From the IMG/VR virus record IMGVR_UViG_3300042307_000990, positions 1 through 20,283 of that record: 20,283 bases of DNA, one strand, 5' to 3'. Positions 1,806 through 19,830 of this stretch are shown here, piece after piece (position 1 is the first letter of the stretch; the number at the start of each line of letters is the position of its first letter). The notes under the pieces were generated by a model. It ran no database searches. It had not been told where the DNA came from and saw only the letters and a list, made by a program, of their open reading frames with translations. A program made the translations under genes and the position numbers. The DNA is from a virus.

Positions 1806-1832
1806 TTCAATATCGTACGTATAAATATTGAA
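1806..1832 (-). repeat. 8-bp inverted repeat before the metallopeptidase start
   Basis: TTCAATAT and ATATTGAA are perfect arms with an 11-nt spacer that includes CGTACG. The 3' arm ends 2 nt before the ATG, and the 5' arm overlaps the boundary motif. It could be an mRNA hairpin or an operator for a dimeric protein. Confidence 0.4.
1820..1828 (-). promoter_or_regulatory. Boundary motif ATATTTATA, 16 nt before metallopeptidase ATG
   Basis: An exact copy of the 9-mer that recurs between gene clusters in this window. It lies in the 31-nt gap between the exonuclease stop (1835) and the metallopeptidase start (1803) and overlaps the 3' side of an 8-bp inverted repeat. It may be a late promoter core or another unit-boundary signal. 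Confidence 0.5.
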
Positions 1833-1834
1833 AT

Positions 1835-2620
1835 TTATGCTAATTTAACAGATGTCGGTAGTAATTCGCTATATGGTTTGCTGTCTGGATTTTCTAATCT
1901 ATAGATGTCGTATATTTTAGTAAAGATATCAAAATTCTTTTCAATGTCTTCTATTACTCTTAGTTGCCATCCAGCACCTTGAATTTTTTCACCTTTCTTA
2001 TCTTCACCACGAGTAGATGCTTTTAACCAAATAATACCAATATCTGTAATTGGCTCGTCATGGGTTTCATTCCATGCTTTAGCGTATGCTGATAATTGTA
2101 AATCGTAGCTAGTATGTAATGAGTTAGATGTTTTAATATCTAATAACCATAATTTACCTCTTAATCTAACAATTAAATCGGCTGTGCCTGCATATTCGTG
2201 TTTATCTGAAAATAAATGGTATTCTGCTGCTACTAATTCTGGTTTTTCACGATTCCAAAATTCAGTAAACTTTAAAATCATTTTCCAAACATCTAAATTA
2301 TAGTTTACAAAACCATTATCCTCAATCCATACTATTTCTTCACCGTTTAGGAATTTTTCCGCTGCGTTATGGACTTGTGTACCTTCAGCTGCTGCTTTAG
2401 ATGCAATAATATCACTGTTATGTCCTACGTCCTTTAGCCAAGAATGGAAAAATTGGTTTTTAGGGAAATAGTTTAAAATACTAGATACTGAAGGGTAATA
2501 TTTTTCATTTCGTCTATAGAAACGTTGGTCTAATATTGTTATTTGTTTGTTATCCTCACTATATTGAACGATACGTTTAATTTTAGGATCTTTAATTACG
2601 TTGAAATTTTTATCTATCAT
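1835..2620 (-). CDS. PD-(D/E)XK exonuclease, RecB/Cas4-like
   Basis: A 261-aa nuclease with the full motif series of the RecB/Cas4-like PD-(D/E)XK superfamily: PSVSSIL (43-49), GTQVHNAAE (80-88, motif I His84), E133 in AAEYHLF, GTAD (145-148), DIKTS (161-165, catalytic D161 and K163) and QLSAYA (175-180, motif QxxxY-like). Length fits stand-alone phage members. These enzymes cut or resect DNA with Mg2+ and commonly act in phage recombination, replication or host DNA breakdown. The ATG overlaps the stop of the primase gene (ATGA, 2617-2620), which implies translational coupling and a shared replication/recombination role. There is no CXC cluster pattern at the C-terminus, so a Cas4-type iron-sulfur cluster is not supported. 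Confidence 0.87.
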   Translation of the reverse strand: MIDKNFNVIKDPKIKRIVQYSEDNKQITILDQRFYRRNEKYYPSVSSILNYFPKNQFFHSWLKDVGHNSDIIASKAAAEGTQVHNAAEKFLNGEEIVWIEDNGFVNYNLDVWKMILKFTEFWNREKPELVAAEYHLFSDKHEYAGTADLIVRLRGKLWLLDIKTSNSLHTSYDLQLSAYAKAWNETHDEPITDIGIIWLKASTRGEDKKGEKIQGAGWQLRVIEDIEKNFDIFTKIYDIYRLENPDSKPYSELLPTSVKLA

Positions 2621-3570
2621 ATGTTGTTTAATTTTTTTATTAATAAGCTTTGGAATGTAAGTGGCGGTGTTTCTTCTAATATATTAAGGAAATTTTCAAA
2701 TCCTATTGTATTAGCATCCTTACCATCTAACTCTACCATATATACTTCTTTACCAAACGCCATTAATCGTTCACAATGTTTTAATGAATCCTTAATAGCA
2801 TCTTTATCTAATGCAATGTATATTCGTGTAACATCAGATGATACTAATTTTTCCATTAGTTTATCGTGAATTACTTTACCGAATAATGGAATGCAATTAC
2901 GTTTAATAGTTAAAAAATCAAATATACCTTCAACTAATATAATAGGAGCATTCCAGTTTATTAGTAGCTCCATACCAATTATATTTTTAGCAGATATAGG
3001 TGGATTATCGTATTTTCTAGATAATGTATCAGTATAATCACGAGCAATAAAGTAATTTAACATACCGTTATTGTCGTATGATGGTATTATAACTCGTTTT
3101 TCGTATTTACCTTCAACGCAAAATCCAATGTTGAATTTTAAGATGTCGTCCTCCGTTAAACCTCTAGATTTAATGTATTTAATCGCATGTTTAGCATTGA
3201 TTTTCGTAAGTTTATCTAGCGATTCTATACTAGTTAACGAAATAAACTCTTTAGGTAAATCTATTGTTTTTTCGGCACGTATTGTTGTGTGTCCTGGTTT
3301 GATAATTAATTTTAATTCTCTTAATTTATCAGAAGGCGCTTGTGTCTTTTTAAGTAAAGATGATATTGTTTTACCTTTAGTATTATTTTCAGGTGGACAT
3401 GTCCAACAATGCCATGGATTTTCACTTTTTTCATTAGTTTCTAATTGTATTTCTAATTTGCGTTTGTGATGATGGCAAAACGGACAGAAAAAAGACACAT
3501 TACCTTTGCTGGTATTTTGTCCTTTGCCCAATACGGATTCTAATAATACTAATAAACCTTGATTTTCCAT
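2617..3570 (-). CDS. DNA primase (zinc finger plus Toprim), T4 gp61-like role
   Basis: A 317-aa primase. An N-terminal zinc-binding segment has C29-x2-C32 (FFCPFCHHH) paired with C55-x2-C58 (WHCWTC), as in CHC2-type primase fingers. The central part carries KRVIIPSYDNNGMLNYFIAR (158-177), the usual RNA-polymerase-core strand of DnaG-like primases. The Toprim catalytic residues are visible as LVEG (E214), ALDKDA (D255, D257) and the downstream DGKDAN (282-287). It would make RNA primers for lagging-strand synthesis with a phage helicase not encoded here. Length is close to T4 gp61 (342 aa, known for the family). A 7-bp inverted repeat fills the 24-nt gap before the ATG, suggesting translational control. 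Confidence 0.87.
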   Translation of the reverse strand: MENQGLLVLLESVLGKGQNTSKGNVSFFCPFCHHHKRKLEIQLETNEKSENPWHCWTCPPENNTKGKTISSLLKKTQAPSDKLRELKLIIKPGHTTIRAEKTIDLPKEFISLTSIESLDKLTKINAKHAIKYIKSRGLTEDDILKFNIGFCVEGKYEKRVIIPSYDNNGMLNYFIARDYTDTLSRKYDNPPISAKNIIGMELLINWNAPIILVEGIFDFLTIKRNCIPLFGKVIHDKLMEKLVSSDVTRIYIALDKDAIKDSLKHCERLMAFGKEVYMVELDGKDANTIGFENFLNILEETPPLTFQSLLIKKLNNI

Positions 3571-3590
3571 TAGATTGAATATACAATCTA
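3571..3590 (-). promoter_or_regulatory. 7-bp inverted repeat abutting the primase start
   Basis: TAGATTG and CAATCTA are perfect inverted arms around a 6-nt TATATT loop on the coding strand. The hairpin fills the gap between the GIY-YIG stop and the primase start, and the 3' arm touches the ATG. There is no T-run after it, so it is not a classic terminator. It resembles translational operators that sit on T4 replication genes; the binding partner is unknown. Confidence 0.5.
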
Positions 3591-3594
3591 TATT

Positions 3595-4053
3595 TTAGAG
3601 AACAAAGTCTTTACTAAAGAACTTTCCAAGGACGTTGTCGTTATAGAATAGTTCTGGGTGTTCTAATACTTTGTAAGTGAATAGGGCTTGTGTTTCGTAG
3701 TATGTTAATAGCTTCTTGTTAGGTGCTAATTTAATTATAGTACGAGTAAACGATGCTTGTTTACCTTCCTTAATTAACTGCATTACTTCTTTATTAGAGC
3801 CATAGTAATTTAACCAATCAGATTCTTTAGTTACTATTTTAGTGGTTGGCTTACGGCCAACACCAGTTAATTCGGCTATTTCTTTTTTGCCTAATTTTAC
3901 TTTTTTGTTGTGATATAATACTTTTTTACCTATATAAGATTTATTAGTATCGTTATTTTTAACAATATAAATAAATCCGAATGTATCTTTAGGAAAATCG
4001 TTGAGATTAGTGATGGGCGTAGTATTGTACGTCCAAGTAGGAAGTGTTACCAT
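3595..4053 (-). CDS. GIY-YIG nuclease, SegE-like, free-standing
   Basis: A 152-aa protein with the GIY-YIG pattern relaxed to GFIYIV (26-31) and SYIGKK (39-44). It is followed by the WLNYYGSN strand/helix (80-87), R104 (FTRTII) and the metal-binding Glu E120 in YYETQALF, then the terminal FYNDNVLGKFF block. This order matches the SegE-like group of GIY-YIG endonucleases common in T4-type phages. It is a single small domain without an added DNA-binding module, so target choice cannot be read. It starts 1 nt after a virion-protein gene and ends 24 nt before the primase, at the border between structural and replication genes. It may be a homing-type element or a domesticated nuclease; all key residues appear intact. 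Confidence 0.8.
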   Translation of the reverse strand: MVTLPTWTYNTTPITNLNDFPKDTFGFIYIVKNNDTNKSYIGKKVLYHNKKVKLGKKEIAELTGVGRKPTTKIVTKESDWLNYYGSNKEVMQLIKEGKQASFTRTIIKLAPNKKLLTYYETQALFTYKVLEHPELFYNDNVLGKFFSKDFVL

Positions 4054-5022
4054 TTATAAATCGTATTTAACTACAAACGTCATATCTGTATTTGGAGACA
4101 TTAGTAATGGTTTTCCAAATTTAGCTACAGCTAATAATTCATCATTGTCGTTGTATAATCCTAATGCTGTTACATAAGGTGAGAAATCAGAACTGGTAGC
4201 AAAGTTTTTTAATGTACCATCATTAATATAGAAATTTGAACCAGAAATATTAACATTAGTTATACTTCCTGTTTGTAGTGTTGGGTTATAGCTTAAATTA
4301 AATTCGCTTTCCTTTACAACGCATCTTACTTCATTTTCATAAATAGTATAATTATTCTGGAATGATACGGTAAATGGATTAGCTGGGTTATAGAAGTCAG
4401 TAGCATAGTTTTGGTTAGTTATAACAACTATACCTTGAGCATAGAATATATTTCCTGCAAATAGTGATTCACTTCCAGATTGCTCTAAGAAATAACTACT
4501 ACTAACATAACTAGAGCTAACGTATCCTGATAGGTCTGTTATATTATATAGGTTACCTTTACCATCATCTACAATATAATGTATAGATGAAGATATTTTA
4601 AAACTATATGGAAGTATTTTATCTCCAAAAATACCGTTACTAACACTTAATATTCCAATTTGTTCATTAGAACCTGATGGAAATGCTTTTACGAAATCTG
4701 GGTTTGAATCGAAGATAAAATAAGATGATGTTGGTCTTTGAGATGATGCTGATTCATAATATATAGAACTAGCTAATGATCCTGTATTAAGAGAAGCAGT
4801 ATATGATTGATAATATAACTGATTAGCTAATGCATAGATAGAAGATTCATATTCTCCATTTGTAGTTGTGGTTCCACTAGCTACAAACGGGGTATTAGTA
4901 CCTACATAATAAGTAATATACCCATCATTTGGGGTAACACTATATGAAAAATTCCACTGCTTATTTGCAGTGTACGGTACTACAGTAACATCCGATGTGT
5001 AAAGTGGTTTGAATGAGCTCAT
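4054..5022 (-). CDS. Virion structural protein, paralog of the next gene upstream
   Basis: A 322-aa protein rich in Ser, Tyr, Thr and Asn with beta-strand-like alternation and no signal peptide or membrane segment. The C-terminal third carries two blocks also present in the protein at 5030-6022: an ExxFNxSxNPT-type block (KESEFNLSYNPTLQ) and a terminal block (YVTALGLYNDNDELLAVAKF, then GKPL). I associate these blocks with virion proteins of T4-like phages. The N-terminal part is not shared. The gene begins 7 nt after its paralog and ends abutting the GIY-YIG start. In T4 the region after gp6 and gp7 encodes gp8 and further baseplate proteins, so a baseplate role is plausible by position only. 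Confidence 0.72.
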   Translation of the reverse strand: MSSFKPLYTSDVTVVPYTANKQWNFSYSVTPNDGYITYYVGTNTPFVASGTTTTNGEYESSIYALANQLYYQSYTASLNTGSLASSIYYESASSQRPTSSYFIFDSNPDFVKAFPSGSNEQIGILSVSNGIFGDKILPYSFKISSSIHYIVDDGKGNLYNITDLSGYVSSSYVSSSYFLEQSGSESLFAGNIFYAQGIVVITNQNYATDFYNPANPFTVSFQNNYTIYENEVRCVVKESEFNLSYNPTLQTGSITNVNISGSNFYINDGTLKNFATSSDFSPYVTALGLYNDNDELLAVAKFGKPLLMSPNTDMTFVVKYDL

Positions 5023-5029
5023 GCATATT

Positions 5030-6022
5030 TTAGTAATCTAACTTAACTCTAATAAGAGCTTCTTTAGTAAAATCTTTAACTAATGGTTTACTTAATTTAG
5101 CAACAGCTAACAAATCGTTATTATCGTTGTATAATCCTACAGTTGTAACGTAGGTTTGTGGATTATTAATTAATGTTGTATATAATATATTACCATTTGC
5201 ATCTATAATAGATGGATTAGTAGTATAGTTAAAATCACCATTTTTAACACGTGTAAAGAAATAACGTGAAGATACTGTTTCTGATGATTGAACTGTTAAA
5301 GGAATACTTGCTACTCCAGAAGCTGATACTGAACTGAATAGTTTTAAAGCATTATAATTAGCAGCAAATGATGATGTAATTGGAGCAGCATATGGACTAA
5401 CTGAATTAGAACCACTTGCCTTTAAAATAACAACGTTAATATCAGGTAAAAACATACCATAATATGTTGTAGCAGCACTACCAGTATAAGCTGATCCATT
5501 GCTACCACTGATAATATTGTAGTATCTGTTTTCTCCAATAAAATTAGTAGTATTAGATACGTTACTATCGTCTGTTAAATATAGTTGAGCACTACCGCTT
5601 CTTAAACCTATGTTTAATGAGCCAGGTAATAATGATTCTTTATAGCGAGCTCTAGAAAAATTGATAACATATATATCATTAGCAGTTGTAGTACCACCAT
5701 CAAAGCTAAAGTTAGTAGTTTCAGTACCGTACACTAAGTTTCTGTATTGTCCGTAAACAATACGACTTGGCGAAGCGCCTGTTACTTGAGAATTTAAAAG
5801 TGCAGATCCTGAACCATATAGGTTACCGTATTGAACAGTAAATTGTACTGATGCTGAAGCATTGGTTGTTGGGTTAGCATTATATACATCTAAATAATAC
5901 TCAGTGTATCCACTAGCAGTAAAAAATGTTGTTAATGAACCTGTATCTCCACTGAATAGTCCTCTAACTACTGTTTCTGAACTGATTACTGAATCTTCTG
6001 GGTTATATCTTACAAATGACAT
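5030..6022 (-). CDS. Virion structural protein with conserved GLYND C-terminal block
   Basis: A 330-aa beta-rich protein. The middle contains RIVYGQYRNLVYGTE followed by DIYVINFSRARYKESLLPG, blocks I recognise from virion proteins of T4-like phages. The C-terminal region has VKNGDFNYTTNPSI and then TYVTTVGLYNDNNDLLAVAK, followed by LSKPL. Both C-terminal blocks recur at the same relative place in the neighbouring 322-aa protein, so the two arose by duplication. It has no predicted membrane segment. It follows the 218-aa virion gene by 22 nt across an AAATTTAAATTT palindrome. Exact virion location cannot be read from the sequence; baseplate periphery or tail attachment are the likeliest by position. 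Confidence 0.74.
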   Translation of the reverse strand: MSFVRYNPEDSVISSETVVRGLFSGDTGSLTTFFTASGYTEYYLDVYNANPTTNASASVQFTVQYGNLYGSGSALLNSQVTGASPSRIVYGQYRNLVYGTETTNFSFDGGTTTANDIYVINFSRARYKESLLPGSLNIGLRSGSAQLYLTDDSNVSNTTNFIGENRYYNIISGSNGSAYTGSAATTYYGMFLPDINVVILKASGSNSVSPYAAPITSSFAANYNALKLFSSVSASGVASIPLTVQSSETVSSRYFFTRVKNGDFNYTTNPSIIDANGNILYTTLINNPQTYVTTVGLYNDNNDLLAVAKLSKPLVKDFTKEALIRVKLDY

Positions 6023-6044
6023 ATTGTATAGTTAATTTTTAAAT

Positions 6045-6701
6045 TTAAATTTTAGTTATAGTAAGAGGAATAGTAATTCTTGCACCACTATCTCTACCAA
6101 TTACTGTTAATGTTGTTGTAATTGATGTTAATGTAGTACCATATAATGTATTAACTGTTGTACCAGTAATAGAGAATGATGTACCTACTTGTGTTGCTGA
6201 TAATATTGTTCCTGATGTTGTATTTAAACCAGTAATGCCAGGAGCAGTTGTTGTAATACCTGTACCTTGGAATGCTGATAATAATCTACCATCTGCTACT
6301 ACCACGATATATCCATTACTTTCAAAGCTGCTTAAAGCACCTAAGTAATTTAATGTTTGTGGAGTAATGGTTAATGACGCACCTTGTTTAATAATGATAC
6401 TATTGTATCCAACGTTGATAATAGGTAATTTAGCTGTACCACGAGGTAAAGTAATTAACTTATAACGCATTGTTTGTGTGTCTTCAGGGAATGCTTCAAT
6501 TACTGGCATAGCTTCAATAGCTTGTCCATAATATGCTGATCCTGATGGGTGATTAGGATTATATAATGTATAATCAATTTCATCATCAGCTAATGCAAAT
6601 TGTGTGATTTGAAACGAACCATCGTTACGCGCTAATAATTGGCGTCCTTTAGTGGTTAGAATAGCGTCTACTGTTACAGTAGAAGGGTTTAATATTGCCA
6701 T
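6045..6701 (-). CDS. Virion structural protein with C-terminal Ig-like beta region
   Basis: A 218-aa protein. The N-terminal half contains a strongly patterned region: ILTTKGRQLLARNDGSFQIT (14-33), FALADDEIDYTLYNPNHPSG and the following EDTQTMRYKLITLPRG, a type seen in structural proteins of marine and Bacteroidetes myoviruses. The last 65 residues (TGTTVNTLYGTTLTSITTTL and TVIGRDSGARITIPLTIT) alternate polar and hydrophobic residues like an Ig-like or BACON-type beta-sandwich, common on phage tails and capsids. It is the first gene of a tight cluster, 21 nt downstream of an exact boundary motif. The function is inferred from context only. Confidence 0.7.
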   Translation of the reverse strand: MAILNPSTVTVDAILTTKGRQLLARNDGSFQITQFALADDEIDYTLYNPNHPSGSAYYGQAIEAMPVIEAFPEDTQTMRYKLITLPRGTAKLPIINVGYNSIIIKQGASLTITPQTLNYLGALSSFESNGYIVVVADGRLLSAFQGTGITTTAPGITGLNTTSGTILSATQVGTSFSITGTTVNTLYGTTLTSITTTLTVIGRDSGARITIPLTITKI

Positions 6702-6722
6702 GTTTTAGTATTTTATTACTAT

Positions 6723-6731
6723 TATAAATAT
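6723..6731 (-). promoter_or_regulatory. Boundary motif ATATTTATA, 21 nt before 218-aa virion gene
   Basis: Exact copy in the 48-nt gap after the 1268-aa wedge gene. Downstream on the coding strand lie TAGTA and TACTA arms (5-bp stem, 6-nt loop) and then the ATG. It would open the virion-protein to replication-gene cluster. Confidence 0.55.
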
Positions 6732-6749
6732 ATGTTGTTTTAATTCTTG

Positions 6750-9700
6750 TTATAATATACCAGCTTTTCTAGCAATCTCCAAAGGATTGTATGCAGGGTT
6801 AAAATTCTTAGGAATCATTATCCCTGAATGTTCATTGTTTAACCCCACAGGTAATAATACTATAGTATCATTAGGTATTCTTCTATATATTAACCAACAT
6901 TGTTTATCATATGTTGGTATAGTATTAGTAGGTATTATTCTATCTACAAATAATGAACCTGATTGTAATCCAATAAATGAACTAGATACTATCATGTAAT
7001 CTGTTCTACCTGATAATCCCGGATTCCATTTAAATGCTGGGATGTTAGTTGGATCGGGAGATAATATTCCTGTTTCTGTTCCTAGTATTAGAAAATCTCC
7101 TACTTCTATTGATGAATACACATTATCAACTGAAGCTAAACTTTGTGAAGGATTAATTCTAAGTTGTGATGTATTATCAGTTAGTGTACTTCCTGTACTA
7201 GCGTTAGCAATTTCTATATCAGTAATAAGGGATCCGCTAAAAGAACCAGTTAAAAAAGGATATAACCAATTGAATGGTTGTTCTACATCTCCAGTTCCAG
7301 TACCATTTATCATAAATGTTTTAAGTTCTGTGGTAGTAGTTACTGGTTTAAAATATTCTGTTCGTGTGGCAGTAGTAGATCCTGTTAATTCTATACGTAC
7401 TTTATTACTTCCACTAGTAATATATCCATAGTATTGTACATTAGTTAATGTACCATCTGATGAACCAGAAACTAAACTAGAAATAATAGTTACATAATTA
7501 TTTCCTGCATCTAAACAAGTAACAGTTTTAGGAGTAGATAAAGAGCTACTATCATTGATGTAATATAAAAGTACATCTGATCCTGCATTAAATGTGTTAC
7601 TTACTTCGCTAATATATCTGTTTTCTCCTAAAGTATATCTAGTACCATTTATATCTATTAATTCACTAATTCGAGCAGCACTACCTACTGCTACTTGAGA
7701 ATATGAAGAAGTAATATAATTAAATACAGCAAAATAATTCGTATAAACATCAATAGCAGCTGTTAAACCATATCCCTGATTACTAGACGATACAGTATTA
7801 TATTTAGCACTTGTTGTTTTTACACCATCGTATCTTGAACGTTTATATGATGTTAAAGATAAATTTGAATCTTGTAATTCAGCTGGGGTGAAAATAGATG
7901 ATGTTGATTGTCTATTTATTAATTCACTATTTGGAGTGTATATGTTATTTCTAAGTCTTGATGTTACACTAGATGATACGTTATTAAATAATGGATTAGC
8001 ATCTACATCATATACAACTAAATCTTGAGTTGTTACTATTACTGTACTTCCACTTAATTCACCAGTGTAAAATTCACTTAAATCATTATGAAGTTTAGTA
8101 ACTAAACCCTTAGTAGTATTGATGTTTTCTACCCACGATTGAGAAGCAGGGTTAATATCTTCATATACTCCTCCACTTCCTGCTCTAGCCATTACTAATG
8201 AACCTGATTCATCAGCGAATGTATTAAATTCACCTGTATGGATGCTTTCAGTAGTAGATGTGCTAGGGTTAGCATATGTAAATTTATTACGCTCTAATAC
8301 TGGAGAGTCTATAGTGATACCTGTAGATAAGCTAGTTCTAGCAGGTACAAAATCTTCTAATGTTTTGAATAATGAATTATCAAAAAACTGAATTAATCTA
8401 ATGAATCCATTATAATCTAATAATGAACCTGTAAATCCAGAATATGAACCTGTGCCTTGAGAAAAATATATTTTACGTTGATTATCCAAATCAGGATAAG
8501 AACCACTATACATTTGTCTAGGATCACCAATATAATCATCTATATTCCAAGTAGGATTACTAGATGATATTGATTGTGAAATATATAAATCAATTTGTGT
8601 TTGAGGTGAGAATGAAATATCTACATAATTCAAATCTTCATCTAAAATATTAGCTGATGCTGTATTTGCTTGTTGAATGCTAATAAATGGAGATAGTAAA
8701 CTGCCTGTAGCATTATTATCTACTAATCTTACTTTAGAATCATTATATCCTTTTAGTAGACCTTTTTTAGTTGATCCACCATATTCTTTAACACTTAAAA
8801 TACTACCTGTAATACCAAATGTAGTGATAATAGCTTCTAAACCAGCTTTAGTACCTTTAGTTTTAACTAAGTAAGGTAAATTATGGTAAATACGTTTATA
8901 TACCTCAGCTAATAGGTCTTTACGAGGAATATTATTTAAATAGCTACTAGTAGGTGAGAAATTCTCTAATGAACCACTATAAACAGCACTTCCTGAGTTA
9001 TTACCAATTTCAAATTGGTTTAAATCTTCACCACCTAAACTATTGTATACATTAATACCAAATGATTTTAATACATAGTATACTAAATCTTTAGATACAC
9101 CTTCTTCTAAATTGTTATTAGCTAAATTTATATCTGTAATCGATTGTAGTAAAATCCATATATTATCAAAATAATGACCAACCATATGTAAAAACAAAAC
9201 ATATTGGCTGTTATCCGGATTATCTACTAAATAAATGGGGATACTATTCTTTAAATTATTTGGATTTAATTCATCATATGATGATGCTAATGCTATATTA
9301 TTATTATACCAAGTTATAGCAGTTGCTGAACCTGTTGAGTATAACACATAAGGTAGTGTAGCTGTTGATTTCGGCCAAGCATATGAGCTAGACTGAAAGT
9401 ATAAGTATGTTTCATATCCATCAAAATTAGCAATTATATTACTAATACTAGCTGAATATGTGTTGATTTCTGTTTGTAAATTTGGAAACAATGAAGCACT
9501 AAGAGTATAATTAGTTATTAAACTGTTATAGTCTTCTATTTGTTTTGCCTTAGTATAGAAATTAGCTAAACGTTGTTCTACTGAACCAAAGAATGAGAAA
9601 TTAGAATAATTAGTATAATCTACATTAATATCTATACTTTGTGAAGTAAGGGCATTTAATAATTTATTATATGATGCACTTTGAGATACTTGTAATGTTG

Positions 9701-10890: not shown

Positions 10891-10891
10891 T

Positions 10892-11983
10892 TTATCTTAT
10901 AACTTTAAAATAATAATTTTCATCTAATACTACTACTTCTCTATTAGCTAATACTGTTTTAAGTAATAATTGATAGTAACGTTCTGGTTGTAATCCGTTC
11001 ATATATACATCAAAATAACTTCCTGAAGTATCTGCACTTATTTTAGTGTATGTTGTATCATAATCTATAATAATCTCTTCAGTATCTAAGTCTTTAATAG
11101 ACCAGTATGAAGTAGCAGGTAGTACTTTATTGTTCAAATATACAGAAGAAGTTTGGAAAGTCCTAGCAGGGAAGCGATCTCTTACATTTACTCTAAAACG
11201 TTGTATCGAATCTTGTTGATATTCGTTTTGGTTATTTGGAATAGATGCTACTATTTGATCTGAAGTGATTACTGATAGTGATCCTGTACTGTATATTGTA
11301 TCATTCCATCTAATTTCTAAACATGGAGGATATATAGTATGGGTATTACTTGAAAAATATTTAGTTTCAAATTTAGAAGCCGAAGTAAATTCTATAGCAG
11401 AGCTATGTTTAACAATGAATCCTTGATTAGCTATCGAAGAGCTAAACCAAGCTGATACAGTATTATTTACTTTTAATTCAATATCTTTTGAAGTGGTATG
11501 AGTAAATGATTGAGTAGTCTCATATGAGCCAGTATACCATAAACCACCACCTGAATTAACACCATATGATCCTGTAGTGTTTGGAGGAAATGTTACGCCA
11601 AACCATGGACTACCACTTTCTGCGTTTCTATATCCCCAACTAGCACCATCGGTTGTAATAGGTGAATTAGATAGTCTACCAGTACCTATATCCCAACTTC
11701 CTGATAATGGATAACCATATATAGTGTAATCTAAAGGGATTTCAGTAGCAGTAGCTAAGTATAATTTTAAATATGCATCGAATGCGCTACCAGATACTTT
11801 ATTAGTAATAATGTCACTAATTTCACTTTGTGGAAATTTAATTAACACACGTGATGAATCATCAGTACTGGTTGCAGTATAAAAGGTGCTAATCTCTAAT
11901 ATCTCATCCAAACCTGTGTTTAGTTCTGGATAGTATGAATAGAGAGTAGCACTCTTTTCTGGGAAAATTTTATATATTGCCAT
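10892..11983 (-). CDS. Virion structural protein with DNRLRE-like N-terminus
   Basis: A 363-aa protein. The start, KSATLYSYYPELNTGLDEIL then SSRVLIKFPQSEI (residues about 10-56), matches the pattern of DNRLRE-type beta-sandwich modules (A-T-[LV]-Y-S-x-P-N-x-G, then R-x-L-[IL]-K-F), which are carbohydrate-binding-like domains of extracellular proteins. A second part includes a Gly/Trp/Tyr-rich region and TIYPPCLEIRWND. The C-terminal 120 residues have RFRVNVRDRFPARTF, LPATSYWSIKDLDTEEIIID and GLQPERYYQLLLKT, which read like a separate beta domain conserved in T4-like virion proteins. It is the first gene of its cluster, 19 nt after an exact boundary motif. A baseplate or fibre-attachment role is likely; sugar binding is only suggested. 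Confidence 0.72.
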   Translation of the reverse strand: MAIYKIFPEKSATLYSYYPELNTGLDEILEISTFYTATSTDDSSRVLIKFPQSEISDIITNKVSGSAFDAYLKLYLATATEIPLDYTIYGYPLSGSWDIGTGRLSNSPITTDGASWGYRNAESGSPWFGVTFPPNTTGSYGVNSGGGLWYTGSYETTQSFTHTTSKDIELKVNNTVSAWFSSSIANQGFIVKHSSAIEFTSASKFETKYFSSNTHTIYPPCLEIRWNDTIYSTGSLSVITSDQIVASIPNNQNEYQQDSIQRFRVNVRDRFPARTFQTSSVYLNNKVLPATSYWSIKDLDTEEIIIDYDTTYTKISADTSGSYFDVYMNGLQPERYYQLLLKTVLANREVVVLDENYYFKVIR

Positions 11984-12002
11984 AAATTATATAATTACTA
12001 TA

Positions 12003-12011
12003 TATAAATAT
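12003..12011 (-). promoter_or_regulatory. Boundary motif ATATTTATA, 19 nt before 363-aa virion gene
   Basis: Exact copy in the 45-nt gap between the endolysin stop (12029) and the next start. It is followed on the coding strand by TATAGTAATTATATAATTT, which includes a 12-bp palindrome, and then the ATG. Confidence 0.55.
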
Positions 12012-12028
12012 AACAACAATATGGATTT

Positions 12029-12841: not shown

Positions 12842-12865
12842 AGTTTGTTTGTTTTTAAGTGTTTA

Positions 12866-14707
12866 CTAATATGCTATAACTCTACCTTGAATATCAGTTT
12901 CAGGGTATCTTAATTCAAATATACTTGGATCCAATGATGGATAAATTATATTATTGCTTGTAGCAGCTGCTATATCATATCCGTATTGAGAATATGTAGT
13001 ACCTGCAGTATCTTGTTTATTTATGATTTCTAATTTTACTACGGATTGTACTCCTCTAATTTTAAGTAATTGTGAAGTTATATCTGATAGAATAATAGGT
13101 TGGTTAATTTGCCATCTATCTATATTAAAATTTGTTTTTAATGTATCAATACAATTAGATAATACTTCATTGTTATTATATCCTACAGCTGTAGTAATAT
13201 CAAAATTAATCCCAATATTAATGTAAAATGCATTTTTAATATTAATAGCATCTGTTACCATTCTATATTGGTCGATGTATGTGGCTAAATTATTTTTTAA
13301 TGTGGTATTAGCGTTTACTAACTTCTTATTAGTATCATATGCGAGTACATATAAATCTAGAGACAGTGGGTTTACAGCGCTTGTAGGCGTTCCTGGTGCC
13401 GAATTAAGAGTGTTAGACGCGAAATTTTGGCTTAAGTATACTTTAGCTATTGTACCGTAATCTGAAGGTAAAGATAATGCTCTAACAATATAGTCATTTT
13501 TAGTTACCGCTCTTAATTGAGATGAATATGCATATAATGCATTATTACGAACTTCTTCGATTTCATCACCACCTCTACCACCTGATGATGGAGTAGGATT
13601 ATTTGATACTACACTAGCTACTACTTGATTTGCTAATGCTGTATTAACAGGTGCTCCGTTTTTAAAATAAATTCCAGTAGTACTGATTGTAGTTAAATCG
13701 TTTGAAGGAACGTTTGATGTGATTCCTCCTCCAACTAAATATCTTACTTGTAATGTACCATTAGATGGAGCTAAACCATATTCTCTAGTAAAGAAAATAG
13801 ATGCTTTGTTATAGTTATTACTTAAATTAGAAATCCCCGGTACTAAACCTAATTGAATATTATCTGGTGTAGGTAAAATAGTAGTGTCTGCACTATTAGA
13901 TACGCCTGCTCCAAATTCTAATTGTAATGTATTATTAGATAATACCCTAGATACAAATCTTCTAGGTACGTTTTGTAACTGAAGTAAATAAGGTACTTGA
14001 TCTGTAGAATAGTTAGGGTTAGTAACTTGATTAAATCTAGATGATTGAGCTAAATAAGGTACTTCATACCATTGATTACTATCACTACCAGTTACATCTA
14101 ATATTTGTATAACATTAGTATCAGTAATACTGATATTTGTAAATTTCTGTGGTGTATTAAATGTATAAGTAGCTGTTTTAATTTCTGCTGAAATAGTAGA
14201 TACTGTTTTCTTTAATAAGTAAAAGTTACTATTTACAAATGTAATTTCTGCTGAACCTGTATCTGTAAAATCTATTTGTGTTGTAGTTATAAATTTAGTA
14301 CCTGTAGATGTTGAAGTAACAGTAGAGTTAGCTGGGATAATTAATCCATAAGTTGCAACATCAGGAGTAGTAATACTTCCACTTGTAATAGAAGGTACTA
14401 ATTGATATACATCTAATGATGTATTAGAAGCATATGATGCTTTAGGTCTATATCCTAGAGCATATGATAATGCATATAAATTTTCTTTTTCCTTAGCGTA
14501 TAATAAAAAGTTTTCTTGTACTTGGGTATCTACATAGAAAGACATTACATCACCTACATAAGATGCCATTTCAATAAACATACTACCTGGAGAGGCATCA
14601 CTAAAATCATTATATGAATTAGGGAAATATGTTTGAGCATAGTTAATTAAACTACTCTTAAATTCAGTAAAAGTCTTATTTACATAAGATATGTTTTTAT
14701 CCGCCAT
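12866..14707 (-). CDS. gp6: Baseplate wedge protein gp6
   Basis: A 613-aa protein of the gp6/Baseplate_J family (T4 gp6 is 660 aa). The N-terminus FTEFKSSLINYAQTYFPNSY then DFSDASPGSMFIEMASYVGD and NLYALSYALGYRPK (13-90) is the classic gp6 opening. In the middle, GGRGGDEIEEVRNNALYAYS then SQLRAVTKNDYIVRALSLP (about 375-415) is the J-like core. The C-terminal part holds DRWQINQPIILSDI and IRGVQSVVKLEI, also typical. Dimers of gp6 form the inner ring of the baseplate with gp25 and gp7. The gene starts 1 nt after the gp25 stop (TAAAATG), giving coupled synthesis of two directly interacting wedge parts. Confidence 0.92.
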   Translation of the reverse strand: MADKNISYVNKTFTEFKSSLINYAQTYFPNSYNDFSDASPGSMFIEMASYVGDVMSFYVDTQVQENFLLYAKEKENLYALSYALGYRPKASYASNTSLDVYQLVPSITSGSITTPDVATYGLIIPANSTVTSTSTGTKFITTTQIDFTDTGSAEITFVNSNFYLLKKTVSTISAEIKTATYTFNTPQKFTNISITDTNVIQILDVTGSDSNQWYEVPYLAQSSRFNQVTNPNYSTDQVPYLLQLQNVPRRFVSRVLSNNTLQLEFGAGVSNSADTTILPTPDNIQLGLVPGISNLSNNYNKASIFFTREYGLAPSNGTLQVRYLVGGGITSNVPSNDLTTISTTGIYFKNGAPVNTALANQVVASVVSNNPTPSSGGRGGDEIEEVRNNALYAYSSQLRAVTKNDYIVRALSLPSDYGTIAKVYLSQNFASNTLNSAPGTPTSAVNPLSLDLYVLAYDTNKKLVNANTTLKNNLATYIDQYRMVTDAINIKNAFYINIGINFDITTAVGYNNNEVLSNCIDTLKTNFNIDRWQINQPIILSDITSQLLKIRGVQSVVKLEIINKQDTAGTTYSQYGYDIAAATSNNIIYPSLDPSIFELRYPETDIQGRVIAY

Positions 14708-14708
14708 T

Positions 14709-15119
14709 TTATTTTAATTCTATTGTAATTTGATCTGCTTTTCCCGAAAGTATCAATCTATATTTTACTACTACATTAATTGTATAATGGTCTTGATCAT
14801 AGATTACATCAATAGTGTCTGCTTGAATTTGAGGAATAAATATACTAATCGCATCCGCTATTTTACTTTGGATTAGTGGTATATTTTCATCTACCATTCC
14901 TTCAAATAACATATAGCTAATATCAGCTCCAAACTCAGGATTCATTATTCGTTCACCCTTATTAGATAATAGAAGATTAATCAAATTTGATTTAATTTGA
15001 TCTTGAGTACTATATGTACTTTTAAATACTTCACTACTATTAAATGGTAATGACACACCAATAGCTACATTTTTCTGTAGATCTAATGGGTCAATACGGG
15101 TTACTTCTTGTATAGGCAT
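14709..15119 (-). CDS. gp25: Baseplate wedge protein gp25
   Basis: A 136-aa protein matching the gp25/GPW family in length (T4 gp25 is 132 aa) and motifs: VSLPFN near the start, QIKSNLINLLLSNKGERIMN followed by PEFGADI (41-67), and a C-terminal beta region DVIYDQDHYTINVVVKYRL. In T4 and P2 this protein seeds sheath polymerisation and sits in the wedge core with gp6. The GERIMNPEFG block is the most conserved part of the family and is intact. It lies 1 nt after the 118-aa gene and 1 nt before gp6, the same gp25-gp6 pairing found in many contractile tails. Confidence 0.92.
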   Translation of the reverse strand: MPIQEVTRIDPLDLQKNVAIGVSLPFNSSEVFKSTYSTQDQIKSNLINLLLSNKGERIMNPEFGADISYMLFEGMVDENIPLIQSKIADAISIFIPQIQADTIDVIYDQDHYTINVVVKYRLILSGKADQITIELK

Positions 15120-15120
15120 C

Positions 15121-15477
15121 TTATCCTAAGTTTTTTAGTCCTGCTTTATCCTGTGCACTCATGTTAGCTGCAGCATCCATAATAAAATCTGTGAATGGAT
15201 TATCATTAGTTGGATCTACTTTTAATTCAGCTCCGCTATATGATGATACTGTTGGATTATTAAATCCAAATGCAGCTCCCATTTTTGATCTTAATTGGGC
15301 ACGAACATCTAATGTTTCATGTATGTCGTTAGTGGTAAAACTAACTGTTTTTGTTTCCTGTAATGGAGATGGTTTACTAACCGCCTTGGGTGAGTCACTT
15401 AAAATAGCTAATAGCTCTTCGCGTACTGCTTCAGCTACTGCCTCTTTAATCAAACCTTTAAATGCTTTTACATTCAT
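15121..15477 (-). CDS. Small hypothetical protein upstream of gp25
   Basis: A 118-aa protein. Residues 1-28 (FKGLIKEAVAEAVREELLAI) form an amphipathic helix, followed by a Ser/Pro/Lys linker and a C-terminal part with DNPFTDFIMDAAANMSAQDK. It has no cysteine cluster, signal peptide or membrane segment. The ATG at 15477 is the only sensible start, because the next in-frame Met is near residue 66. Only 3 nt separate that ATG from the boundary motif, so the mRNA would be leaderless or nearly so if the motif is a promoter. Placement before gp25 and gp6 suggests a small virion component or assembly factor. I do not recognise a family. Confidence 0.64.
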   Translation of the reverse strand: MNVKAFKGLIKEAVAEAVREELLAILSDSPKAVSKPSPLQETKTVSFTTNDIHETLDVRAQLRSKMGAAFGFNNPTVSSYSGAELKVDPTNDNPFTDFIMDAAANMSAQDKAGLKNLG

Positions 15478-15480
15478 ATA

Positions 15481-15489
15481 TATAAATAT
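15481..15489 (-). promoter_or_regulatory. Boundary motif ATATTTATA, 3 nt before 118-aa gene ATG
   Basis: Exact copy that abuts the stop codon of the 402-aa gene (TAA directly followed by ATATTTATA) and sits only 3 nt before the next start. This spacing does not leave room for a normal leader. Confidence 0.5.
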
Positions 15490-16698
15490 TTAACCTTGTA
15501 AATTTTGTTGATCTATTATTATTTTTAATTGGTCTATTAGTACTGGCGGTTCTAGTGTATATGAATAGTCACTTTTAACCACCTCAACATTACTTTTATT
15601 AATGGCTACAGCATAGTGGCGCTTAACGCCTCTAATTATAGTTTTAGGATCATTATCTTCTTTAATTACTAATTTAAATCCCTTATACATACCCTCTACT
15701 GGGTTTTTAATATCAGATAATAGCGCATTTAATGATGCTAATGAATTAGAATCTATAGTTTGTAAATCTAATCGATTATCTACATCACGTAATTGAGCTT
15801 TTAAATCTTCAAATTCAGCTATAACTGGTTCTAATATACTAATAATGATTGGTAAAATAAAGCCAATTAATGCTAATGCCTCTTGTAGTCTTCTAATTAA
15901 TGGAAGAGGTGGTGGGATTGCAAAATTTAATAAAGGGATAAGTAATTCTGTTATTGTTACAATTATCTGTATAGTAATCAATCTATCCTGCATTTGGATA
16001 AATGATCTTTCATTACTGTCTAAAACATTATAAGCCGAATTTCTAGATACTCTAGCCTGATCTAATTCAGCTGGCGTTTGAGCATTATCTATTATTTCAT
16101 TGGTTTGATCTACTAATTCTTGAAGTTTTAAATTCTGTGATATTAGTTTAGTAATGATAATAACAGCTGAGTATGCAATTAATGGTCCTAGTGTTTTAGA
16201 TATATTTTTAAGTAATGTTTTAGCTGCTTTTACTTTATCAGCTTTACTTTTCTTTTTCTTTCTTTGTATTTTACTCTTTAATCTAAATCTTTTTTTCTTT
16301 TGTTCTATTTCGGGATCTTGAGTAATACTATCAATTTGTTCTTTAGTCTTTTTATCCTGCTCATCTAATCCTTTCTTTTCAATCTCATAGCTAGTATTTT
16401 CAGCTATTACTGCTGCTTCATATTCTTGTTGTGTTAAAACAGGAGTAGCCGGTGGTTTAGGTTGGTATTGCTCGTTTAATTTTTTTAGGTTAGTTTTATG
16501 TCTAACTTCTAATTCAATTTTTTTCCTAGCAATTTCCTCAAGTTTCTGTTTAAGTTCACCTAATTTATCAACAGCTGTAGATATTATTTTTTGTTTAGCC
16601 ATATCCTTAACTTGACTCCCAAATGCTTGAGGAGAAGTTACAGTAGCTAATGTGCTACCTACCTGAGGTGGAACTAAAGAGGATACGTTAGTAGGCAT
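15490..16698 (-). CDS. Coiled-coil and membrane-segment protein between hub and wedge genes
   Basis: A 402-aa protein with a clear modular layout. Residues 28-80 are a charged coiled coil (VDKLGELKQKLEEIARKKIE). A second helical region ends in a very basic patch at 134-160 (KKKRFRLKSKIQRKKKKSKA). Hydrophobic stretches lie at about 171-187, 240-262 and 274-293 and are long enough to cross a membrane or pack in a helical bundle; a proline cluster IPPPLPL separates the last two. The C-terminus (VKRHYAVAINKSNVEVVKSD then YTLEPPVLIDQLKIIIDQQN) looks like a conserved tail. Its start overlaps the gp5 stop by 1 nt (TAATG). A tail-tip or membrane-contact role is an inference; too short and unlike known tape measures to claim that. 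Confidence 0.7.
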   Translation of the reverse strand: MPTNVSSLVPPQVGSTLATVTSPQAFGSQVKDMAKQKIISTAVDKLGELKQKLEEIARKKIELEVRHKTNLKKLNEQYQPKPPATPVLTQQEYEAAVIAENTSYEIEKKGLDEQDKKTKEQIDSITQDPEIEQKKKRFRLKSKIQRKKKKSKADKVKAAKTLLKNISKTLGPLIAYSAVIIITKLISQNLKLQELVDQTNEIIDNAQTPAELDQARVSRNSAYNVLDSNERSFIQMQDRLITIQIIVTITELLIPLLNFAIPPPLPLIRRLQEALALIGFILPIIISILEPVIAEFEDLKAQLRDVDNRLDLQTIDSNSLASLNALLSDIKNPVEGMYKGFKLVIKEDNDPKTIIRGVKRHYAVAINKSNVEVVKSDYSYTLEPPVLIDQLKIIIDQQNLQG

Positions 16699-17939
16699 TA
16701 TGATATATATATTTTAGTAGATGCTATATAATTTTTAGCACCTGGTTCTAATCTGTCTAATAATTTTTCAGTTTTATCAGCTAATCTATCAGCAGCGGAT
16801 TTAATACTAGCAACTATCATTCCTTGAGGAGCACCTATTGTAGGTGATATTGTATTTGAAAATTCATTCAATACTGATAGTATTTCACTTAATAAATCCA
16901 TTGTTTGGTATCCTAATAAAATAGGTTCACCTGGTAGATTATTTATAGTACCTTTTACGGTAGCTGGTCCTAAATATATTTTAGATGAATTTAAATGTAT
17001 TCTATTATCAGCGTTTAAGTTGATAATGTTTTGAGTATTTAATTCAATATTAGTTTTAGCAAATAACATTACTTCATCCTTCTTAGAATTTAAAACTATT
17101 CTATCTCCGTTAGCTATAACTTGAGATCCATTATATGTGTTAACAGATATTGGATTAGTAAATGGATTTAAACCACTATTCTTATCAGGGATAAGATTAA
17201 CAGCTTGAGTAGAAGTTAAATAAACAGAAGAAGCATCATCATTTATGCGCTCTACATATAGTAAAGCGGATGATGATGTATAAGCGTGTCCATTAGTAAT
17301 TAAAAGTATTGGATCACCGTTATTACCTACACTACTCCAACCGTTGCCGTTAGGGGTATTAGGGTTACTAAAAGATCTAACGGTACTACCAAAGCGAACT
17401 GAATTGCTTTTTCTGCCAAATAATATGTAATCACCTTCATATGATAATAAATTTTTATTGTTTGCTGTTTCTGTAAATGTTTTACCTAAAGGAGCATTAC
17501 TTAATGTGGTTTGAGAATTTGATTGACTATCATTCCACAAATTAATAGGACCAGCCCAATAAGTAGTAGTTTTAGTTCCCTTCTTAGTTATTTGAGACGC
17601 AGGTGCTGGAGCTGAATATAGATTAATTAATTCACCTATTAATGGGTAATATGTTACATTTGGTTGTATAGGTTTAGCGATTAGACAAGTGTTAAGGAAA
17701 TTATCGGATAAATCACCGTTAATTTGTTTACTACTTTCATATCCTAAATAAAATACAGAACCTATACCACTAACACCACCTGCTTTTTCATACATAGCAG
17801 GGGTAGGTGTATTTTCCGCTGTAACAATAGCAAATACTTTGCCAACGGAGCTATTAGAAGACCCAGGTGAGGATGATGCCTTGCGAGTATCATTGCTAGT
17901 AGAATTACTTCCTCTTAAACCTTGTCTAATTACAGCCAT
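16698..17939 (-). CDS. gp5: Baseplate central hub/spike protein, gp5-like without lysozyme
   Basis: A 413-aa protein. Residues 33-110 form the N-terminal OB-fold region (KVFAIVTAENTPTPAMYEKA, then GIGSVFYLGYE and YYPLIGELINLY). EGDYILFGRKSNSVRFGST (168-186) and SSVYLTSTQAVNL (237-249) are signature blocks of gp5 homologues in marine T4-like phages. Residues about 265-325 repeat short strands (VIANGDRIVLNSKKDEVMLF, IELNTQNIINLNADNRIHLN) typical of the triple-stranded beta-helix spike. The lysozyme domain found inside T4 gp5 is absent: nothing with a glycoside hydrolase pattern lies between the OB region and the helix. A helical C-terminus follows (about 340-400). It sits between a 128-aa gene and the 402-aa gene with 1-nt overlaps on both sides. 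Confidence 0.85.
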   Translation of the reverse strand: MAVIRQGLRGSNSTSNDTRKASSSPGSSNSSVGKVFAIVTAENTPTPAMYEKAGGVSGIGSVFYLGYESSKQINGDLSDNFLNTCLIAKPIQPNVTYYPLIGELINLYSAPAPASQITKKGTKTTTYWAGPINLWNDSQSNSQTTLSNAPLGKTFTETANNKNLLSYEGDYILFGRKSNSVRFGSTVRSFSNPNTPNGNGWSSVGNNGDPILLITNGHAYTSSSALLYVERINDDASSVYLTSTQAVNLIPDKNSGLNPFTNPISVNTYNGSQVIANGDRIVLNSKKDEVMLFAKTNIELNTQNIINLNADNRIHLNSSKIYLGPATVKGTINNLPGEPILLGYQTMDLLSEILSVLNEFSNTISPTIGAPQGMIVASIKSAADRLADKTEKLLDRLEPGAKNYIASTKIYIS

Positions 17940-18325
17940 TACGAGATTTGCTTTTGAATATTATTCGTTGTTTCCAGTAATTTAGCACCTTCATCAACAA
18001 CTGCTCGTTGTTCATCCAATAATGATTGGATTTCGCTCATATCAAATAAAGACTCACCACTATTACTATTAACAGTTGCTGCACGTTGTGCTATACCTGC
18101 CATTTTAATTAGTTGGTCGTTGTTTTTTACATTAACATCAATTAAATCTTTAACTGTAGGCATAAGCATAACAGCTGAACCAGCATTATTAGATGCTAGT
18201 GGTTTTAATTGTTCAATTAACCCGTTAATTTGGGCATCAACGTCTTTATTATTTTTATGAATCTGTTTAAATAAATCAGATAGGGATGTTTTTCCGTATA
18301 ATGTTATGTCGTCAAATGAGGCCAT
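17939..18325 (-). CDS. Small helical protein upstream of the hub gene
   Basis: A 128-aa protein, largely helical and polar, with no cysteine, signal or membrane segment. LSDLFKQIHKNNKDVDAQIN (15-34) and the C-terminal IQSLLDEQRAVVDEGAKLLE stretch look like coiled-coil helices around a central linker. Its stop overlaps the gp5 ATG (TAATG at 17937-17941), so translation is coupled to the hub. It is the first gene of the hub cluster, 21 nt after the boundary motif. By position it may be a hub partner or assembly factor. T4 gp53 lies upstream of gene 5 but is larger and I see no similarity. Confidence 0.66.
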   Translation of the reverse strand: MASFDDITLYGKTSLSDLFKQIHKNNKDVDAQINGLIEQLKPLASNNAGSAVMLMPTVKDLIDVNVKNNDQLIKMAGIAQRAATVNSNSGESLFDMSEIQSLLDEQRAVVDEGAKLLETTNNIQKQIS

Positions 18326-18340
18326 ATGTGTGTTGTTTAC

Positions 18341-18355
18341 AATAAATATAAATAT
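18341..18355 (-). promoter_or_regulatory. Boundary motif, overlapping double copy before the hub cluster
   Basis: The exact copy is at 18347-18355 and shares its first A with the sigma-gene stop codon. A second, one-mismatch copy (ATATTTATT) follows at 18341-18349, giving ATATTTATATTTATT. The 128-aa gene ATG is 21 nt downstream of the exact copy. It lies between the sigma factor and its presumed target genes. Confidence 0.55.
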
Positions 18356-19149
18356 TAATTAAATTTTATATGTCCATTCTTATAATATTCATTAAATAAT
18401 TTATTTCGCAACGTATCTAATTTTTTCGTTACCTTAGTAATCTGAGGTGTAGATGCATCGGTTATTTCACGAATATAAATGTATAATGCTTTTTTATTGA
18501 ATATTTCCAATGATTCACGTTTACGGAATAATTCCATAATGGCGTCTGCTGTTTTAGCGTCTTGGTTTTTAGGAAATAATTTATATAGATTGACGTCAAC
18601 GTATTTTACATACTGATCTATAAATGATATAGGGTCAACCTTATCTTCTGCTTCCCTGAGTGTATCATAGAGAATAACTTTATCCTCTTCAATTTCTTCG
18701 ATTTCAGCGTGTTCTTGTAGTTTTTTGTAATTCCCGTTATTATAGATAATAAGGTAACGTTTGGCGATAGTTCCAAAATAAGAATATGCTTTACCTTTAT
18801 CTTGGTTATATAGATGTAGTTTCTCTAATAAGAATGTAACTACTTCGTGCTTAAGTTCCTCAATTGTATCCAGATCGGTATAATAGAACTTAAATGTGTG
18901 AATAATATTTTCAGCTAATTTATAAAACGAATATCTAATTCGTTCATTATAGATTTGATTACGTACCGTTTGATCAGTAGTAATTAAATACTCAACGATA
19001 GCTTCCTCAGTATCGTGAGTAAAATAAATACGGGGTTCTTTTTCCTTACGCTTACGCGGTTTACCCTGTTTAGTTAATGGAACTTTACCAAATTCATTGT
19101 CTAGGAACGCAGAAACGTCTAGATTCTCATCATACAAATATATACTCAT
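18355..19149 (-). CDS. gp55: gp55-like late RNA polymerase sigma factor
   Basis: A 264-aa protein. A basic N-terminus (KQGKPRKRKEKEPR, about 27-40) is followed by a sigma region 2-like segment at about 70-145: RIRYSFYKLAENIIHTFKFY, TIEELKHEVVTFLLEKLHLY, and DKGKAYSYFGTIAKRYLI. The E-x3-L/F-x3-E-K-L-x10-G-K-A-x-S-Y-F pattern is that of phage late sigma factors of the T4 gp55 type, which direct host core RNA polymerase to late promoters. The C-terminal segment YIREITDASTPQITKVTKKL (226-245) reads like a helix-turn-helix, a region that T4 gp55 (185 aa) lacks. It is followed by the baseplate genes, fitting a late regulator expressed ahead of its targets. An inverted repeat includes its start codon. 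Confidence 0.8.
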   Translation of the reverse strand: MSIYLYDENLDVSAFLDNEFGKVPLTKQGKPRKRKEKEPRIYFTHDTEEAIVEYLITTDQTVRNQIYNERIRYSFYKLAENIIHTFKFYYTDLDTIEELKHEVVTFLLEKLHLYNQDKGKAYSYFGTIAKRYLIIYNNGNYKKLQEHAEIEEIEEDKVILYDTLREAEDKVDPISFIDQYVKYVDVNLYKLFPKNQDAKTADAIMELFRKRESLEIFNKKALYIYIREITDASTPQITKVTKKLDTLRNKLFNEYYKNGHIKFN

Positions 19150-19182
19150 TACGTGTTTAATTCAATTAGATCATAACGTAAT
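19148..19182 (-). repeat. 7-bp inverted repeat that includes the sigma start codon
   Basis: ATTACGT and ACGTAAT arms are separated by 21 nt. On the coding strand the downstream arm reads into the first two bases of the sigma ATG, so pairing would occlude the start. The loop is long and AT-rich, so stability is modest. Confidence 0.3.
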
Positions 19183-19205
19183 AAGAAAAAATCACATCTC
19201 CAAAT

Positions 19206-19478
19206 TTACTTCACAGTAATTTCAGATAATATAGATTGTAATTCTTTTATCTTTTGAAAAGTGGTTTGCATTTCTTCATCACCTTCAACCCAAAAACGAT
19301 CATTAATTTCACCTAATGCCATATTCAGTTCTCCAGTAATAATATTAATACTATCAATGTACTGTTGTTGTTGCATTACAACGTTCTCCAGCCTATTAGA
19401 CTTACGTATTAAAATGTAGCATCCTAAACCTACTAATTCAAGCAGATGGATTCCTACGACCCATAACAATGTTTCCAT
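19206..19478 (-). CDS. Small membrane-anchored coiled-coil protein
   Basis: A 90-aa protein with one N-terminal hydrophobic segment at 4-24 (LLWVVGIHLLELVGLGCYIL) followed by positive residues RKSNR, so the C-terminal helix is probably cytoplasmic. The remainder is a charged coiled coil ending in WVEGDEEMQTTFQKIKELQS. It has a good Shine-Dalgarno sequence: AGAGGA at 19484-19489, 5 nt before the ATG, the clearest in the window. It starts 2 nt after the 65-aa gene. I do not recognise a named family. A holin is unlikely from the single short segment and long soluble helix, but it is a small membrane protein and a lysis or membrane role cannot be excluded. Confidence 0.68.
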   Translation of the reverse strand: METLLWVVGIHLLELVGLGCYILIRKSNRLENVVMQQQQYIDSINIITGELNMALGEINDRFWVEGDEEMQTTFQKIKELQSILSEITVK

Positions 19479-19480
19479 AA

Positions 19481-19678
19481 CTATCCTCTAAATTGTTGTT
19501 CAAACTCGTCAGATTCTGTTCTAACTAGTTCCATAATGTTTTCTAAATGCTCTTTTAATTGTTCAACAGTGTTATCAATGTCTTCAGTTGACATGTTTCT
19601 GTTTACTTGCATTTGTAATTTTTGTCCGATGTTTTGCGCTTGAACTAAACCGTCTAGCACTTTATTTTTAAATCTCAT
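19481..19678 (-). CDS. Small coiled-coil protein
   Basis: A 65-aa protein, almost wholly helical and charged (DNTVEQLKEHLENIMELVRT at 35-54), with no membrane segment. Credible as a gene because it is the first of a tight pair, is 14 nt after an exact boundary motif, ends 2 nt before the next ATG, and has a low-complexity-free coding pattern like its neighbours. It resembles the many small helical phage proteins that partner larger complexes; no family can be named. Confidence 0.6.
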   Translation of the reverse strand: MRFKNKVLDGLVQAQNIGQKLQMQVNRNMSTEDIDNTVEQLKEHLENIMELVRTESDEFEQQFRG

Positions 19679-19692
19679 AATATATCTTTATA

Positions 19693-19701
19693 TATAAATA
19701 T
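19693..19701 (-). promoter_or_regulatory. Boundary motif ATATTTATA, 14 nt before 65-aa gene
   Basis: Exact copy at the downstream end of the 152-nt gap after the acidic gene. Upstream of it on the coding strand lies a G-rich run, and downstream an AT-rich TATATAAAGATATATT leader. Confidence 0.55.
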
Positions 19702-19830
19702 ACGAATGTTTCCCACTCCCACCAATTGTTTGCTATTTATTTCAAACGTTTGCAATCGTTTCTCTCATTCCCTTAATTTTCTAAAAACCCCGTAGGCTGA
19801 AGTTACAAGAATTTCCTTACGCTTCCAAAT
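19702..19830. other. Intergenic segment, the longest gap in the window
   Basis: This holds no convincing gene. It contains a 10-bp palindrome CAAACGTTTG (19743-19752) and, on the minus strand, a G-rich run GGTGGGAGTGGG (19712-19723). A CCTACGGGGTTTTT stretch on the minus strand near 19780-19795 is U-rich at the end but has only a tiny possible stem, so a terminator is doubtful. It may separate the acidic gene from the next unit. Confidence 0.4.

Follow-up and report, generated by a model that had tools for sequence, protein, structure and literature searches.

The late promoter of phage T4 consists of a single 8-bp box, TATAAATA, lacks a -35 element and is read by gp55 (PMC2988020). The T4-like late promoters of marine cyanophages carry NATAAATA, as described for S-PM2 (PMC2984593), and the promoters of Bacteroidetes hosts combine a TTTG at -33 with a TAnnTTTG at -7 (PMC6847099, PMC7366714). 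Here we describe a nine-letter box, TATAAATAT on the plus strand and ATATTTATA on the gene-sense strand, in a viral DNA of 20,283 nucleotides (nt) (IMG/VR record IMGVR_UViG_3300042307_000990, positions 1 to 20,283; the window). With a probability of roughly 0.77, we propose that ATATTTATA is the sense-strand core of a single-box, -10-type late promoter of Immutovirus-related phages and is read by their own divergent sigma factor. The open-access literature that we searched contained no relevant report on the motif or on the promoters of two related phages, Flavobacterium phage immuto and Microcystis phage Mel-JY01.

All genes of the window lie on the minus strand, and its DNA (31% G+C) is ~97.6% coding and 2.4% intergenic. 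The box occurs in six exact copies (Table 1), all of which read ATATTTATA on the gene-sense (minus) strand, and no exact match in the window has the other orientation. An ATG follows each box in the sense direction at a distance of 3–21 nt. The box at 15481 directly adjoins the stop codon of the preceding gene, and the box at 18347 shares the last base of the stop codon of the sigma gene. The signal is carried by the placement of the boxes, not by their number. Shuffled sequences gave 3.6 copies of the 9-mer, with six or more in 16 of 100 shuffles, whereas for the intergenic DNA a Markov model predicted 0.16 copies and did not reach six in any of 20,000 simulations. The informative unit is the 9-mer rather than the bare 8-mer TATTTATA/TATAAATA, which showed no enrichment in the window (9 observed versus 9.6 expected). 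A control with the reversed pattern was uninformative because ATATTTATA reads identically backwards. When the window was scored with a 13-column matrix whose training set came from other phages only, the six boxes were its top six sense-strand sites (10.8–15.4 bits); the next sense site scored 8.4 bits and the best antisense site 10.7 bits.

Relatives were recruited with a baseplate protein and the sigma-like protein of the window, which gave ~150 viral metagenome loci among the matches listed; scans of viral contigs gave at least ~600 matches. The named relatives were immuto, Mel-JY01 and the uncultured phage LR756508. In the relatives, almost all genes share one strand. In 104 non-redundant loci, including the window, ATATTTATA was present in 319 copies, with 254 in noncoding sense DNA versus 11 in noncoding antisense DNA. 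A de novo search for upstream 8-mers, which returned TATAAATA in the T4 control, gave ATATTTAT as the top word in five contigs of 57–169 kb, with sense far above antisense copies. The same procedure gave ATATTTAT in Mel-JY01, and in immuto TATATTTA and TATTTATA ranked second and third, again with sense far above antisense. Of the 126 words composed of four A and five T, ATATTTATA was the most frequent in noncoding sense DNA (123 copies; mean, 9.5), followed mostly by its own overlapping shifts.

We then chose the orthologs of each window gene regardless of the motif and inspected the 60 nt upstream of each; gene starts in the relatives came from a simple caller of longest open reading frames, so that some start codons are misplaced. 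The exact box preceded the orthologs of all five testable box-headed genes: gene 6045 (16/20; 20/20 with at most one mismatch), gene 10892 (41/70), gene 15121 (43/52; 52/52 with at most one mismatch, at a distance of 3–4 nt), gene 17939 (41/80; 76/80 with at most one mismatch) and gene 19481 (28/33, mostly at 14 nt). The sixth, gene 916, has no ortholog in this set, and a similar gene of contig G002 (34131) has the same box. No exact box was found in the 60 nt upstream of the orthologs of the gp6-like (0/87), gp25-like (0/93) and sigma (0/60) genes, and the other window genes with enough orthologs gave 0/39, 0/32, 0/19 and 1/65. This test is the strongest evidence that the boxes mark real, conserved cluster boundaries. 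The original prediction had reported six exact copies in a single orientation, placed between genes beyond chance as an oriented signal of gene-cluster boundaries, and had named strand and start-distance statistics and a comparison of relatives as checks; on each of these points it held.

The layout of the sites is also conserved: the 9-bp core is followed by 3 nt and then by a purine, usually A. Among 142 aligned sites, this fourth base after the core was the clearest other column (A, 0.72; G, 0.17), and 17 of 20 unrelated single families had an A there. Its position is tied to the core and not to the ATG. The distance to the start codon in six relatives and the window was either 3–5 nt (21 sites) or 10–30 nt (99 sites), with only 2 sites at 6–9 nt. 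In the close class, the fourth base after the core is the A of the ATG; this exact arrangement was found in 13 protein clusters, led by the gene 15121 family with 62 copies. The simplest reading is that the purine is +1, which would give two kinds of mRNA, one leaderless or nearly leaderless and the other with a leader of ~7–10 nt or more. No upstream column of the aligned sites exceeded 0.3 bit, and there was no conserved -35 element; T was enriched near -18, and GGCAAAA stood upstream at a minority of the sites, which lie in early-looking regions.

Boxes in immuto and in contigs G001 and G002 precede terminase, portal, PhoH, sheath, tube, baseplate hub, tape-measure and baseplate-region genes. 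In immuto, TATTTATA has 17 sites in the structural half of the genome (77–160 kb) and 2 in the 60–77-kb block of small genes, whereas a bipartite signal, GTTG followed after ~20 nt by TATATTTAG, has 16 sites in that block and 2 in the structural half (Fisher P = 1.7e-6). The two signals share an ATATTTA stem; the bipartite one differs by its upstream GTTG, its AG ending and its concentration in the small-gene block. It is likely an early promoter resembling the TTTG/TAnnTTTG type of the host. From this gene content, we take TATTTATA to mark late promoters and the bipartite signal early promoters in immuto. Across immuto positions 60955–76215, we observed AGTTG, ~20 nt and TATATTTAGgtat(c/a) at 21–30 nt from the ATG of ~16 small genes. 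A small-gene region of G001/G002 (for example, L171 1865–11672) has GGCAAAA ~17 nt upstream of the ATATTTATA core, which suggests that these contigs have a second, bipartite promoter class sharing that core.

The ATATTTATA promoters would resemble those of T4 in having a single A/T-only box near -10 with a tight consensus and no conserved -35 element, in their position before clusters of virion genes and in a small divergent phage sigma factor as the probable reader. They differ in the box itself: the sense core in the window, the relatives and immuto is TATTTATA and not the TATAAATA of T4. The box also lies ~2 nt nearer to the start (-11 to -4; T4, -13 to -6), a leaderless class exists, gp55 sequence homology is not detectable and no gp45-type clamp family was found in the relatives. 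The S-PM2 box NATAAATA is likewise a late box predicted in silico, in front of late genes of the T4 type, but it has an A run where the present box has a T run. In the proposed mechanism, RNA polymerase with the phage sigma factor (18355–19149) would melt this box on the gene-sense strand and initiate at the fourth base after it, the purine, so that the box would span -12 to -4 with the A at +1. Transcription from each box would cover one cluster of virion genes, and where the ATG falls on +1, as at gene 15121–15477, the mRNA would be leaderless.

The gene at 18355–19149 belongs to a conserved family. Scans of its product with PHROG and Pfam gave weak matches to sigma-70 region 2 (Pfam Sigma70_r2, E = 0.1 for the window protein and as low as 0.002 in relatives). 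When three large relatives were scanned for sigma-70 region 2, the best match genome-wide was the ortholog of this protein, with scores comparable to or better than those of T4 gp55. The AlphaFold2 model had a predicted local distance difference test score of 71 and a predicted template modeling score of 0.41, and the structural matches listed for it were nearly all sigma factors. Residues 41–152 of the model matched T4 gp55 (PDB 7d7c, chain 7d7c_F) with a Z score of 9.6 and a root mean square deviation of 3.5 over 106 aligned residues, the second-best chain by Z, and the match to region 2 of sigmaE had a Z score of 9.7. The modeled protein thus appears to have the sigma-70 domain 2 fold that characterizes the gp55 family. 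An hhalign comparison with a 132-amino-acid part of T4 gp55, itself very divergent, gave a probability of only 0.3%, and hmmsearch of the protein against PDB sequences gave no match. Of the claim that a gp55-like sigma factor is encoded here, the fold and the likely role stand, but no sequence homology to gp55 was detected; judging from the model, the gene probably encodes a divergent sigma factor that works like gp55 without being a proven gp55. Self-reinforcing sigma expression is possible because the gene lies in the run headed by the box at 19693, although it lacks a box of its own.

It is unlikely that the box is instead a promoter read by the host primary sigma factor, the Bacteroidetes sigmaABfr with its -7 TAnnTTTG, or by a host sigma remodeled by the phage. 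The position of the box relative to the start is nearly that of the host element, within ~1 base of a -7 box that lies 4–5 nt before the start in Flavobacterium johnsoniae (PMC6847099); a TA followed by a T run is common to both, and the T enrichment near -18 recalls the host pattern. However, ATATTTATA sites have neither the TTTG end of the -7 element nor a conserved TTTG partner at -33, and paired TTTG/TAnnTTTG elements were not enriched upstream of genes. The probable early genes of immuto, moreover, have the separate bipartite signal, which is nearer to the host type. Scans with the sigma-70 consensus gave fewer matches than in shuffled sequences.

It is very improbable that the box acts at the RNA level, as a leader element for mRNA processing or as a translation start signal. 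Boxes do lie near start codons, and ends mapped by primer extension in T4 can be processing products (PMC2988020). Yet distances to the ATG are bimodal, the purine is fixed to the core and not to the ATG, and the internal genes of these clusters, which need translation too, have no box in front of them. Mel-JY01 is informative in this respect: Shine-Dalgarno-like sequences precede 81 of its 231 genes versus ~4–5% in immuto and the large contigs, and many of its boxes stand 27–43 nt from the ATG, with GGAG-, GAGG- or AGGA-like sequences in the leaders. The larger distance in this phage is therefore to be expected if the box is a promoter but not if it is a translation signal.

Scarcely any weight falls on the idea that the complement of the box is an antisense promoter of the T4 late type, or that the sigma factor reads the box in reverse. 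The T4 late promoter core, TATAAATA(T), does occur on the plus strand, but at each site an antisense transcript would enter the preceding gene from the 3′ side, the genes of the relatives are almost all on a single strand, and the +4 purine and the ATG spacing belong to the sense side. The original prediction had called the box the mirror of the T4 late promoter. The plus-strand reading and a comparable function stand, but the box is not a T4 promoter placed backwards; it looks like a mirror because it is an A/T-only word in which a central T run replaces the A run of T4, so that the likeness is a resemblance of two A/T-only boxes rather than an inverted promoter. The further options of the original prediction, namely reading in the opposite sense, an antisense promoter, a processing signal and a terminator, were not borne out. 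A terminator, or chance A/T enrichment in intergenic DNA that is 78% A+T, can practically be dismissed, because no box falls on one of the ten terminator-like sites, as an intrinsic terminator with its G+C-rich hairpin and T run should, and the simulation, permuted-word and ortholog tests all contradict chance.

Several points weigh against a late promoter read by a phage sigma factor. We infer, rather than observe, that the purine is the start site, that the timing is late and that the sigma factor is that of the phage and not of the host, and it is conceivable that the A at +4 is part of a DNA-binding motif. The link between box and sigma factor is circumstantial: LR756508, a more distant relative, encodes a sigma homolog (42%) and homologous baseplate genes, but ATATTTATA, TATTTATA and TATAAATA showed no enrichment in its first 240 kb, where a late box of its own was not found either. 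Some boxes of G001/G002 precede small nonstructural genes and have the upstream GGCAAAA, so that the core may also serve early genes, perhaps with the host sigma factor. The T4-type sliding-clamp family PF02916, found in T4, was not found in five relatives, and a T4-like coupling to replication is therefore unsupported.

The features of the window are collected in Table 1. The variant ATATTTATT at 316–324 is likely a seventh promoter; such variants are common before genes of the relatives, and a second, overlapping ATATTTATT lies 6 nt downstream of the box at 18347. The purine-rich stretch at 19708–19723 is possibly an activator site for the run that contains the sigma gene. Similar G-rich stretches were seen just upstream of the orthologous promoter in contigs G001 (13227), G002 (13832), G004 (48584, reversed contig) and G008 (9576). 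The gp6-like protein is 43% identical to the baseplate wedge protein of immuto.

Table 1. Predicted promoter boxes and neighboring features of the window
Feature	Coordinates	Strand	Context	Predicted start and leader
Predicted promoter box ATATTTATA	1820..1828	-	before gene 916-1803	A 1816, leader 13 nt
Predicted promoter box	6723..6731	-	before gene 6045-6701	G 6719, leader 18 nt
Predicted promoter box	12003..12011	-	before gene 10892-11983	A 11999, leader 16 nt
Predicted promoter box	15481..15489	-	3 nt from ATG of gene 15121-15477	A of ATG (15477), leaderless
Predicted promoter box	18347..18355	-	before gene 17939-18325	A 18343, leader 18 nt
Predicted promoter box	19693..19701	-	before gene 19481-19678, run leading to sigma gene	A 19689, leader 11 nt
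Likely variant box ATATTTATT	316..324	-	26 nt before gene 2-289	A 312 (+4), leader 23 nt
Purine/G-rich stretch ggtgggagtgggaaac (by eye)	19708..19723	-	upstream of 19693 box	
Probable divergent sigma factor, 264 amino acids	18355..19149	-	proposed reader of the boxes	
Baseplate wedge (gp6-like) gene	12866..14707	-	inside cluster headed by 15481 box	
Baseplate wedge (gp25-like) gene	14709..15119	-	inside cluster headed by 15481 box	

Taken together, these data provide a late-promoter consensus and predicted start sites for Immutovirus-related phages, whose relatives are abundant in metagenomes. The box predicts operon starts, a candidate sigma factor and a conserved leaderless mRNA, and it suggests that a single-box late system in the style of T4 can exist with a different box. 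More tentatively, and at a little less than even odds, a widespread clade of phages on Bacteroidetes (for Mel-JY01, apparently on a cyanobacterium) may have a late system of its own, in which a sigma factor not recognizably derived from gp55 reads ATATTTATA-N3-A and a conserved gene of the baseplate cluster, with its start codon on +1, is expressed from a leaderless mRNA, in a phylum where such mRNAs are uncommon. A late box in LR756508 would test the co-evolution of sigma factor and box, and since the host of immuto is in culture, the prediction can be tested directly.

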